DNA of 64,000 nt from Curtobacterium caseinilyticum (GTDB lineage Bacteria > Actinomycetota > Actinomycetes > Actinomycetales > Microbacteriaceae). The notes under the pieces were generated by a model. The model worked only from the letters and a program-made list of their open reading frames with translations, did no database searches and was not told the origin of the DNA. Location: contig NZ_JAUCMN010000001.1 in the NCBI RefSeq assembly GCF_030363035.1, positions 186,001 through 250,000 of the forward strand. The letters run 5' to 3'. The position numbers and the translations under genes are program-made. This document shows positions 11,987 through 15,253 of the stretch, in pieces (positions within the stretch are counted from its first letter, which is position 1; the number at the start of each line of letters is the position of its first letter).

Positions 11987-13237
11987 TCACGCGGGGTCCT
12001 GCCGAGCGTGCGGCGGCCGCTGCTCGGGCGTGCCGCGGACGAGCGAGGCCGGCCGCAGCACGCCCGCACCGAAGCGCGCGGCGACGGCGTCGACGGTGGT
12101 CTCGGTCTCGCGCCACGGCGCGTCGTCGTCCCACAGGGCGTTGCTCGCGGCGGCCGGCACGAGGTTCTCGCCACGGACGCCGATGAGCCGGATGCGGTTG
12201 CCCGGTCGGTGCAGCACGTCGTACAGCTCGACGGCCTCGTGGTGCAAGCGCTTCGCGACGTCGGTCGGTTCGGCGAGCGTGCGGGAGCGCGTGAGCGTGG
12301 AGAAGTCGGTGTACCGGACCTTGAGCGCCACGGTCCGGGCCTGCACGTCGGCGCGGCGGAGTCGGACGGCGACCTTGTCCGCGAGCCGGAGGAGCTCGCG
12401 GGCGACGTCGTCGCGCTCGGTCAGGTCGCGGCCGAAGGTGACCTCGTGCCCGACGGACTTCTCGCTGACGCCGGTGTCGACGACGCGCGGGTCACGTCCC
12501 CACGACAGGTCGTGCAGCCGCTGTCCGCCGGCGGGTCCGAGCGCGGCGACGAGCGAGGGCAACGGGGTGTGCGCGAGGTCGCCGACGGTCCGGATGCCGC
12601 GGCGCTCGAGCTTCTCCTGCGTGGTGCCCCCGACGCCCCACAGCGCGGAGACCGGCTGCGGGTGCAGGAACGCCACGGTGTGCTCGGCGGGGACCACGAG
12701 CAGGCCGTCCGGCTTCGACCGGCTCGAGGCGAGCTTCGCGACGAACTTCGTCGACGCCGCGCCGACCGAGCAGTGCAGACCGGTCTCGGCGAGGACGGCC
12801 GCACGGATCGCCCGGCCGATCTCCCACGGGGTGCCGTAGAGGCGCATCGCCCCCGAGACGTCGAGGAACGCCTCGTCGATGCCGAGCTTCTCGACCCGGG
12901 GCGTGAACTGCTCGAAGACCCGCATCACCGCGGCGGACTTGGCGCTGTACTTCTCGAAGTGCGGCTCGACGATCACCGCGTTCGGACACCGGCGCTTCGC
13001 CACCGCCATCGGCATCGCCGAGTTCACGCCGTACCTGCGGGCCTCGTACGTGGCAGCGGTGACGACGGACCGGTCGGAGTCGTGCCCGACGATGACCGGC
13101 AGCCCGCGGAGGTCGGGGCGGTCCAGCAGCTCGACGGATGCGAAGAAGGCGTCCATGTCGACGTGCAGGACCGTCGCCGTGACGTCGTCGACCGGGCGGT
13201 CGGAGACGAGTCGGTTGCGTCCGTCCTGCTTGCTCAC
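11987..13237 (-). CDS. dinB: DNA polymerase IV (Y family)
   Basis: A 416-aa error-prone translesion polymerase. Catalytic acidic residues lie in HVDMDAFFASVE (D27, D29) and LGIDEAFLD (D121, E122). Palm/fingers are followed by the HhH thumb and little-finger domain (about 260-390). No clear LexA box lies upstream, and no beta-clamp motif is obvious in the Pro/Arg-rich C-terminus. The start is GTG. Partner of the downstream helicase, which begins within 20 nt of its stop. Confidence 0.93.
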   Translation of the reverse strand: MSKQDGRNRLVSDRPVDDVTATVLHVDMDAFFASVELLDRPDLRGLPVIVGHDSDRSVVTAATYEARRYGVNSAMPMAVAKRRCPNAVIVEPHFEKYSAKSAAVMRVFEQFTPRVEKLGIDEAFLDVSGAMRLYGTPWEIGRAIRAAVLAETGLHCSVGAASTKFVAKLASSRSKPDGLLVVPAEHTVAFLHPQPVSALWGVGGTTQEKLERRGIRTVGDLAHTPLPSLVAALGPAGGQRLHDLSWGRDPRVVDTGVSEKSVGHEVTFGRDLTERDDVARELLRLADKVAVRLRRADVQARTVALKVRYTDFSTLTRSRTLAEPTDVAKRLHHEAVELYDVLHRPGNRIRLIGVRGENLVPAAASNALWDDDAPWRETETTVDAVAARFGAGVLRPASLVRGTPEQRPPHARQDPA

Positions 13238-13280: not shown

Positions 13281-14435
13281 CTACGCCAGCGGCCCGAGCT
13301 CCGCCGCGGCGATCGTCCGCGCCGCCGAGTCCCGCGTCGACGGGTGGTACTGCCCCGCTCGGACGTCACGGGCCAGCCGCGCGAGCTCCGACGTCGCGCC
13401 GTACGCCCGCCCGCCGACGAGCCGCATGGCCTCGTCCACGACGTGCTGCGCGGTGTCGACCGCACGTGCCTTCGTCCCGACGAGCAGCGGGAACCACCGC
13501 GCGCCGAGGTCGTCCTGCTCGTCCACCGACCGGGCGAGGGAGCCGACCTGCAGCGCCACCGCGTCGACGGCTCCGCGGGCGTCCGCGATCGCCCGGCGCA
13601 CGTCGGGGTCCTGCGACCGGAGGACCCCGTCGCGCCCGGCGCGCGCCGAGACCGCGGCGACCGCCAGGTCCACGGCACGCGAGGCGATCCCGACGTACAC
13701 CGATGCCACGAGCAGCTCGAACGCGGCGAAGATCCCGAACACGAGCGGGTCCTGCGTCGGCCCCACCGGCAGCACCCGCACGATCCGCGCCGCCGGCACG
13801 TGCACCCCGCGCAGCAGCGTCGTCCGGCTCTGCGTCGCCCGCATGCCGAGCGTGTCCCAGTCGTCGAGGTGCTCCACGTCGCCGTCGGACCGCAGCACGA
13901 AGCCGTGGACCAGACGCGGCTCCGGACCGCTGGTGTCCTTCCCGAAGACGCTCAGCACGTCCCACGCGGGCGCGAGCGACGTCGACACCTTCGTCCCGGT
14001 GAACCGGTAGCCGCCGTCGCCGTCCGGCTCCGCCGTCGTGGTCGAGTCGAACAGGACGGCGTCGTTGCCGGGTTCGCTGACCCCGAAGGCGAGCAGGTGG
14101 TCGTCGGCCGCGTGGTCGGTGACGGTCTGGAGGAACGACCCGCCCCGCGCGGACACGCTGCGGGCCGCCTGCACCCAGACCTGGTGCATCCCGAGCCCGA
14201 GCGCCGTCGCCGGTGCGGCCTGCGCGAGCACCCGCTGCACCTCGGCCGTCGCCGCGAGTCCGAGCCCCGCCCCGCCGCGCTCGGTCGGGACGCCGATCCG
14301 CAGGTACCCCGCCGCCCGAAGCTCGTCGAGGTCCTCGGCGCAGAAGACGTTGTCGGCGTCGTACCCGGGCGCCCGCGCTGCGATCCGGTCGAGCAGGTCG
14401 TCGGGCAGGCTCCAGGCGGGGTTGGCCTTCGTCAT
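13281..14435 (-). CDS. Acyl-CoA dehydrogenase-family flavoprotein
   Basis: A 384-aa protein with the three-part acyl-CoA dehydrogenase fold: N-terminal helices with GVPTERGGAGLGLA, a mid beta domain (FGVSEPGNDAVLF, FTGTKVSTSLAPAWD) and a C-terminal helical bundle ending LVGGRAYGATSEL. At the place where short-chain dehydrogenases have IYEGT, this protein reads QYHPSTRDS, so the usual catalytic Glu appears absent. It may be a monooxygenase-like or non-canonical member. It starts 23 nt from the divergent SGNH hydrolase; a TAGTCT -10 lies 6 nt before ATG. Confidence 0.82.
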   Translation of the reverse strand: MTKANPAWSLPDDLLDRIAARAPGYDADNVFCAEDLDELRAAGYLRIGVPTERGGAGLGLAATAEVQRVLAQAAPATALGLGMHQVWVQAARSVSARGGSFLQTVTDHAADDHLLAFGVSEPGNDAVLFDSTTTAEPDGDGGYRFTGTKVSTSLAPAWDVLSVFGKDTSGPEPRLVHGFVLRSDGDVEHLDDWDTLGMRATQSRTTLLRGVHVPAARIVRVLPVGPTQDPLVFGIFAAFELLVASVYVGIASRAVDLAVAAVSARAGRDGVLRSQDPDVRRAIADARGAVDAVALQVGSLARSVDEQDDLGARWFPLLVGTKARAVDTAQHVVDEAMRLVGGRAYGATSELARLARDVRAGQYHPSTRDSAARTIAAAELGPLA

Positions 14436-14441
14436 GGCACG

Positions 14442-14451
14442 AGACTACGGT
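14442..14451. promoter_or_regulatory. Overlapping divergent -10 boxes
   Basis: The 10-mer AGACTACGGT contains TAGTCT (minus, 14442-14447, 6 nt from the ATG at 14435) and TACGGT (plus, 14446-14451, 7 nt from the GTG at 14459). The two boxes share the bases 14446-14447, so only one polymerase could open this DNA at a time. Confidence 0.55.
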
Positions 14452-14458
14452 TCGGTGC

Positions 14459-15253
14459 GTGTCAGATCGTCATCCGTGGTCCAGGTACGTCGCGATCGGT
14501 GACTCGTTCACCGAGGGGATCGGGGACCCGGACCCGACGGTGCCGGGTGGCAACCGTGGCTGGGCCGACCGGGTGGCCGAGGTCCTCGCACACCGCACCG
14601 ACGACTTCGCCTACGCGAACCTCGCGGTCCGCGGACGGCTGCTCGGGCAGATCGTCGACGAGCAGGTCGAACCCGCCCTCGCGCTCCGACCGGACCTGGT
14701 TACGGTCTCCGCCGGCGGCAACGACATCATCCGTCCCGGTTCGGACCCGGACGAGCTCGCCGAGCGGTTCGACGGCATGGTCGAGCGGCTGCGCGGCGGA
14801 GGTGCGACGGTCGTGCTGTTCACCGGACCCGACGTGGGCATGACGCCGGTGCTCGGCATGGTGCGGGGCAAGACGGCGATCTACAACGAGAACCTGCACG
14901 CGATCGCGCTGAAGCACGGCGCGCTCGTCGCCGACATGTGGGCGCTGCGGGTGCTCCGCGACCCGCGGATGTGGGCGCCGGACCGACTGCACCACTCCCC
15001 GACCGGGCACGCGACGGTGGCGGCCGCGGTCCTCGACACGCTCGACGTCGACCACGGCCTCGAGCCGTTCGTGCCGGAGCCGCTCGAGGCACGGCCGTGG
15101 CGGGAGGCCCGCGTCGAGGACCTCGGCTGGGCGCGGGAGTACCTCGTGCCCTGGGTCGTGCGGCGGATCAGGCACACGTCGTCCGGCGACGGCATCTCGC
15201 CGAAGCGCCCCGAGCTGCAGGACGTCGTCGAGCACCGCTCCGACACGCCCTGA
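14459..15253 (+). CDS. SGNH/GDSL-family hydrolase
   Basis: A 264-aa esterase-like protein. Block I GDSFTEG (14-20, Ser16 nucleophile), block III GGND and block V DRLHHSP (Asp and His of the triad) are all present. There is no signal peptide, so it should be cytoplasmic. Its natural ester is unknown. GTG at 14459 lacks a Shine-Dalgarno site and follows a TACGGT box by 7 nt, consistent with leaderless translation. Confidence 0.85.
   Translation: MSDRHPWSRYVAIGDSFTEGIGDPDPTVPGGNRGWADRVAEVLAHRTDDFAYANLAVRGRLLGQIVDEQVEPALALRPDLVTVSAGGNDIIRPGSDPDELAERFDGMVERLRGGGATVVLFTGPDVGMTPVLGMVRGKTAIYNENLHAIALKHGALVADMWALRVLRDPRMWAPDRLHHSPTGHATVAAAVLDTLDVDHGLEPFVPEPLEARPWREARVEDLGWAREYLVPWVVRRIRHTSSGDGISPKRPELQDVVEHRSDTP

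Follow-up and report, generated by a model that had tools for sequence, protein, structure and literature searches.

A decamer shared by two divergent leaderless-type genes of Curtobacterium is probably a bidirectional core promoter

The divergent gene pair and its 23-nt spacer

Positions in this study refer to the window, that is, the whole stretch of 64,000 nucleotides of Curtobacterium caseinilyticum DNA that was analysed. An acyl-CoA dehydrogenase superfamily gene (ADH; 13281-14435, minus strand, 384 aa) starts with the ATG at 14435, and an SGNH/GDSL hydrolase gene (14459-15253, plus strand, 264 aa) starts with the GTG at 14459. The spacer between the CAT of the ADH start codon and this GTG is 23 nt long (14436-14458, GGCACGAGACTACGGTTCGGTGC), in agreement with the distance given in the initial annotation. 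The ADH product matched PF08028, PF00441 and PF02771 above cut-off and PF02770 below its cut-off; its 11 NCBIfam matches, led by Rv1679/FadE16 and followed by the SfnB and DszC types, were all far below cut-off. The SGNH product matched PF13472 and PF00657 above cut-off and had no NCBIfam match. No regulator gene was found at the locus. The gene at 11987-13237, which we take to be DNA polymerase IV-like, lies on the same strand as ADH, 43 nt beyond it. Its homologue was found less than 150 nt from the end of ADH in 15 of 26 Curtobacterium loci, at 150-500 nt in 5 and at about 2.5 kb or more in 5; it was not found in one short locus. Since the gap is short in many of these loci, the ADH transcript may run on into this gene.

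The start assignments of both genes are sound. An in-frame TAG four codons ahead of the ADH ATG leaves no possibility of an earlier start, and the GTG of SGNH aligns with the ATG of its orthologues in other genera. The gene caller, which used codon scores and no promoter signal, picked the same two starts.

In the middle of the spacer is a decamer, AGACTACGGT (14442-14451), of the pattern ANNNTANNNT. It is composed of two hexamers on opposite strands, both of which match the actinobacterial -10 sequence TANNNT. TAGTCT (14442-14447, reverse complement), the -10 box of ADH, ends 6 nt before the ATG, and its first three letters are the in-frame TAG mentioned above. TACGGT (14446-14451, plus strand), the -10 box of SGNH, ends 7 nt before the GTG. 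The TA at 14446-14447 forms positions -12/-11 of each box, so that the two-base overlap pointed out in the initial annotation is real. Sharing of bases by -10 elements on opposite strands is the mark of a bidirectional promoter, and it was found here as well as at all 66 Curtobacterium loci with both genes. Shuffling of the 23-nt spacer produced the in-frame arrangement in none of 5000 trials.

The initial annotation overlooked that both boxes stand 6-7 nt from a start codon, which is a leaderless geometry. TANNNT begins 12 nt before the ADH ATG and 13 nt before the SGNH GTG, and in published leaderless genes this hexamer is located some 12 nt ahead of the start codon (PMC3160421, PMC3898074). 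In an 800-kb sample of the C. caseinilyticum genome, TANNNT was found at -12 in 49 and at -13 in 32 of 702 called genes, against a background mean of 1.4 per distance (18-50), while the control hexamer ATNNNT was found there in 0 and 1. In 40 family genomes sampled at 20 kb each, the numbers were 59 and 19 of 667 called genes, with a background of 1.9 and control counts of 3 and 0. Because the box spacing of ADH and SGNH matches both this peak and the published leaderless genes, their mRNAs are predicted to begin at or next to the start codons. From the positions of the -10 boxes, the ADH transcription start site (TSS) would be 14435 on the minus strand, the A of the ATG, and that of SGNH would be 14458-14459 on the plus strand, the last spacer base or the G of the GTG. 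Since 85% of transcripts in M. tuberculosis initiate with a purine (PMC3898074), the G at 14459, 8 nt past the SGNH box, would be favoured over the C at 14458. The predicted TSSs are 23-24 bp apart.

With a spacing of 16-18 nt from the -10 box, the -35 window falls at 14422-14429 for SGNH (plus strand), inside ADH codons, and at 14464-14471 for ADH (minus strand), inside SGNH codons. The placement of each -35 region in the coding sequence of the opposite gene, which had been proposed from the sequence earlier, therefore holds for the positions of the windows, but neither window contains a good -35 element. The best candidate by eye is TTGGCC for SGNH (14422-14427), which matches at 4 of 6 letters with a spacer of 18, and the ADH window has no match to the consensus; a -35 element near TTGACA at 16-18 nt, as in a classical sigma-70 promoter, was thus not found at this spacer. 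CTGACA (the reverse of TGTCAG, 14460-14465) was considered as the -35 element of ADH and rejected, because it is only 12 nt from the box and the distance varies among loci. A consensus sigma-70 scan returned 0 promoters, which is uninformative since the genome has 72% GC and the boxes are degenerate. Promoters of M. tuberculosis also have no conserved -35 (PMC3898074), so that the missing -35 is no measure of how strong the ADH and SGNH promoters may be.

Conservation of the decamer in Curtobacterium and related genera

The SGNH orthologue is held by 34 of the 36 genomes of the genus, including that of C. caseinilyticum, and ADH is its divergent neighbour in all 34. The two genomes in which it is absent, G009 and G022, are 93% and 73% complete. 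We collected 66 Curtobacterium loci from the genus genomes, six further genomes and 26 named Curtobacterium records, after a second, partial SGNH copy without ADH (L250) had been dropped. All 66 loci with both genes have the in-frame arrangement CAx-6/7-ANNNTANNNT-6/7/8-GTG with a start-to-start distance of 22-24 nt. Absence of the spacer from close relatives had been named in the initial annotation as evidence against its proposal; the spacer and its 10-mer are kept throughout.

The 66 loci collapse to 50 distinct sequences, among which the four letters of the motif have undergone 0 parsimony changes. D7, the first inner base of the SGNH box, has changed 12 times, and the fourth, fifth and sixth bases after the decamer have changed 10, 15 and 15 times. 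These counts were made in Curtobacterium alone, with rows retained regardless of whether they had the motif. Positions L-3, D2 and D3 likewise show 0 changes, so conservation at the level of the genus could partly reflect short divergence. Eight different decamers occur in Curtobacterium, including AGACTAATTT (L248) and AGACTATTTT (L249), two loci in which ADH is only 73% identical.

Among the matches listed, ADH and SGNH are divergent neighbours in a few other genera of the family. Within genus g26, an in-frame decamer is present in five of six genomes (G062, G304, G343, G145 and G259), with inner letters other than those in Curtobacterium (AAGGTACGTT, ACGCTACGGT, ACGCTACCGT, ACGGTACCGT and ACGGTACGTT). 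When the g26 intergenic stretches were shuffled 5000 times each, at no locus did more than 0.16% of the trials give the arrangement. What Curtobacterium and g26 have in common is the four promoter letters and the spacings of 6-8 nt, whereas the inner letters mostly differ. The sixth g26 genome, G208, has two separate boxes. In genus g56 the spacer is longer and holds two leaderless-type boxes that stand apart, in the five of six genomes that were read (G225, G168, G276, G318 and G356), by eye and without a script check of the frames. It is plausible that the separate boxes of g56 represent a precursor of the merged decamer. In g92 (G192, G245) and g61 (G098) the two genes are farther apart, and no decamer was found there. 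Altogether, nine genomes of g56, g92, g61 and g26, G208 among them, keep the pair without a shared decamer. The record L072 (WNZI01000039.1), titled Vibrio cholerae strain 35D, has an Arthrobacter-like locus; its SGNH is 68% identical, like the Arthrobacter neighbours among the matches listed, and the assembly is probably mislabelled or contaminated.

Codons 2-20 of SGNH (14462-14518, plus strand), which lie on the upstream side of the ADH promoter, show unusual synonymous conservation. This was analysed in 48 Curtobacterium loci, leaving out L028 and L248 with their altered N-termini. The mean synonymous entropy was 0.45 at 9 testable sites in codons 2-20 versus 1.14 in codons 22-60 (permutation p 0.00025), a control that rests on 13 sites, with only 2 testable sites beyond these codons and 0 in ADH. 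Rare codons are kept, TCA in 46, CAT in 48 and AGG in 44 of the 48 loci, each of which makes up 1-2% of the genomic usage of its amino acid. Gene starts of this genome are in general richer in rare codons, and the conservation of codons 2-20 is partly a generic effect of the start region. We therefore rejected it as proof of an embedded -35 element, rare codons being common at starts generally and the control being small. It is possible that these codons have a dual use, in coding and as the upstream side of the ADH promoter. A possible operator, GGTGA-CTCGT-TCACC, is located at 14498-14512 within the codons for the GDSFT motif of SGNH.

Recurrence of the layout at other gene pairs

The same layout occurs elsewhere in the C. 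caseinilyticum genome. A DUF3000 gene and a divergent alpha-beta hydrolase gene (C1:22789-22817) are likewise separated by a 23-nt spacer, which contains AGACTAGGCT, and genes are called from both starts. A TetR/MFS pair (G000:C12:14563-14591, L164; G000 is this genome) has a 23-nt two-way start, and its right gene is called 15 nt further on. At this pair, competition or autoregulation at the shared start would have an obvious meaning. The layout at a TetR-type regulator and an MFS transporter is also seen at G163:C7 (L171). A DUF3515 gene and its divergent neighbour (L341, C1 just upstream of 525619) have the layout with 7 and 8 nt.

The DUF3515 loci were followed through the family in the best 30 of 83 matches (L260-L289, from 30 genomes). 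In 22 of the 30, both in-frame starts have the leaderless spacing to a decamer, mostly ACGSTAGCCT, and the left side carries a long open frame. The left-hand neighbour is presumably thiL, as judged from its motif; the thiL motif was found on the left by script in 17 of the 22 loci with the decamer, and the left-hand partner in one example matches PF00586. Outside the family, the decamer layout was found in 0 of 19 DUF3515 loci (15 genomes) within 350 nt of the match, and a divergent thiL motif lay 270-698 nt away in 12 of the 19.

Across 150 family genomes, CAT-6-ANNNTANNNT-7-ATG gave 156 matches in 95 genomes, compared with 24 in 20 genomes for the reversed pattern; this ATG/ATG form had 0 matches in the C. 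caseinilyticum genome. The RTG form, which also admits GTG starts, gave 481 matches in the family genomes versus 313 for the reversed control, and 7 versus 0 in the C. caseinilyticum genome. The enrichment of the RTG form is only mild because chance matches abound, and the counts of either form are not independent, since many matches are orthologous recurrences. The 7 RTG matches of this genome include the ADH/SGNH pair, with genes called from both starts, as well as the DUF3000/hydrolase and TetR/MFS pairs described above. Among the remaining four, C7:134030 has its left gene called from that start and its right gene only via a GTG two bases further on, and a separate downstream leaderless-type start is an alternative for the latter. 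At C5:83305 and C9:30874 only the right-hand start has a gene called from it, and C9:144500 has two open frames only.

We also scanned spacings of 3-14 nt on the left and right (144 combinations) in 800 kb of the C. caseinilyticum genome, 800 kb from 40 family genomes and 37 loci of other genera. Five loci were supported by ORFs, all with 6-7 nt on the left and 6-8 nt on the right, one of which scored at 6/3 as well. The five loci all belong to the C. caseinilyticum genome, and none was found in the family or other-genera sets. By called starts, the merged layout is present in 2 of 93 divergent pairs in the sample of this genome and in 0 of 94 in that of the 40 family genomes (20 kb each); per divergent pair, the shared-decamer device is rare. 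When alternative starts were allowed, 11 divergent pairs in the sample of this genome were doubly leaderless-type, of which 2 share the TA and 9 are at least 44 nt apart. There were 2 such pairs in the family sample and 5 in the other genera, none of them merged, and 0 among 31 Streptomyces divergent pairs. The count for the other genera leaves out the row with a gap of 23, as its loci, L087 and L088, are Curtobacterium. Divergent gap lengths were rejected as a test, since 93 and 94 pairs are too few.

The same layout was also seen at a DapB-like/GNAT pair (L172, G089) and at a pair of an M20 peptidase and a tetrahydrodipicolinate succinyltransferase-like gene (L174, G107).

A bidirectional and doubly leaderless reading of the spacer

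Taking together the layout, the leaderless spacing, the conservation and the recurrence of the decamer, we consider it probable that the spacer acts as a core promoter in both directions, leaderless on each side, and is under selection. The following mechanism is proposed on the basis of sequence comparison. The housekeeping (sigma-A) RNA polymerase would recognise the near-symmetric ANNNTANNNT in either orientation and then open it. Transcription would begin 6-8 nt beyond the decamer on either strand, and each recognition event would yield one leaderless mRNA. The 5' ends of both mRNAs would coincide with the start codons or miss them by no more than a base or two, so that a Shine-Dalgarno leader would be unneeded. 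One 10-bp element would thus serve as two -10 boxes and fix the starts of both genes, and the upstream contacts of each promoter would fall in the first codons of the neighbour gene. Because the two footprints coincide, two polymerases should not be loadable at once; the earlier proposal that RNA polymerase could not use both boxes simultaneously follows from this geometry. How far exclusive loading leads to mutual exclusion is a matter of rate, and mutual repression would be expected only once one direction is strongly active.

The elements of this reading are each already known, namely bidirectional promoters, their 23-bp class and leaderless genes. In bidirectional promoters with a symmetric -10 element, as here, boxes on opposite strands share bases (PMC12825309, PMC10268837). 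Their TSSs are most often 18 bp apart, and distances of 10 and 23 bp are also common (PMC12825309); the 23-24 bp predicted for ADH/SGNH is close to the last class. Polymerase binds such promoters in one orientation at a time (PMC12825309), as is proposed here. Unlike the bidirectional promoters described in the accessible parts of these papers, which are enterobacterial, the ADH/SGNH spacer has start codons at the predicted TSSs and its flanking promoter DNA is coding, and the decamer would in addition determine where translation of both genes begins. ADH and SGNH have the same hexamer and distance as leaderless genes, which are common in Actinomycetota (PMC3160421, PMC3898074; M. smegmatis, PMC5741613). 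In M. tuberculosis, divergent promoters lying close together are described as a frequent feature of the transcriptome, and neither PrpD nor the regulator divergent to it has a leader in that species (PMC3898074). In contrast to the leaderless genes described in the portions available of PMC3160421, PMC3898074 and PMC5741613, ADH and SGNH share one overlapping pair of boxes. The promoters of the EcoRV restriction-modification system resemble the present case in that their cores partially overlap and polymerase is unable to bind both; they are under the control of a C protein, and neither a shared-TA decamer nor a double leaderless geometry is described in the part of that paper available to us (PMC5333194). 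A search of titles and abstract openings, which did not extend to the 2021 Nature Microbiology paper on bidirectional promoters, found no paper on one decamer serving two leaderless genes. On the present reading, a bidirectional promoter and leaderless genes are joined in a very compact form. One 10-bp element would then determine the promoter as well as the two translation starts, and neither could shift alone.

Could the overlap have been selected because expression of either gene has to silence its partner, so that their states are anticorrelated? Simultaneous occupancy is forbidden by geometry, the overlapping divergent promoters of EcoRV offer a precedent (PMC5333194), and the divergent pair is present in several genera. 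Strengthening or activation of one direction represses the opposite one in E. coli bidirectional promoters, although one strengthened promoter, bdcR, responded otherwise than expected (PMC12825309). Yet the basal activity of the five E. coli bidirectional promoters tested by Warman, Grainger and colleagues was too low for competition (PMC12825309), and the ADH/SGNH locus has neither a regulator gene nor a consensus -35. Moreover, related genera keep the pair with separate boxes, so exclusion is not required for it. We regard regulatory mutual exclusion as an unlikely reason for the overlap.

It is less probable still that one direction only is a real promoter, the other hexamer being coincidental or weak and its gene being transcribed from elsewhere. 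Although ANNNTANNNT demands just four fixed letters, and the divergent RNA that arises opposite a gene promoter is frequently non-coding antisense RNA (PMC10268837), each box has the leaderless spacing to a conserved in-frame start, the letters of both boxes are retained in the 50 distinct loci and in a second genus, and within 22-24 nt a further promoter could not be fitted without entering coding sequence. The third alternative, a transcription factor operator or a constraint on coding, with the likeness to a promoter being incidental, would account for the extension of the conserved block into SGNH codons 2-20, rare codons included, and for the conserved bases to the left of and inside the ADH box. 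It would hardly account for two genera having only the promoter letters and the 6-8 nt spacings in common while the inner letters mostly differ, or for the same spacing at unrelated gene pairs, and we give it almost no credence.

The bidirectional, doubly leaderless reading may be extended, tentatively and with more doubt than conviction, to a class of minimal divergent units in Microbacteriaceae, in which one ANNNTANNNT would be both promoters and would fix both start codons at 22-25 nt. Such units (thiL/DUF3515, ADH/SGNH and others) might have been born by the collapse of two leaderless promoters and locked by selection, and their outputs might be coupled by polymerase competition when one side is activated. 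Merged and separate boxes at the same gene pair in related genera would be repeated natural test cases for polymerase competition in evolution. A rule of 22-25 nt between divergent starts with a central ANNNTANNNT may also aid start-codon calling in high-GC genomes.

As a separate observation, at least 12 genomes have the palindrome ATCCTAGGAT between two divergent ATGs.
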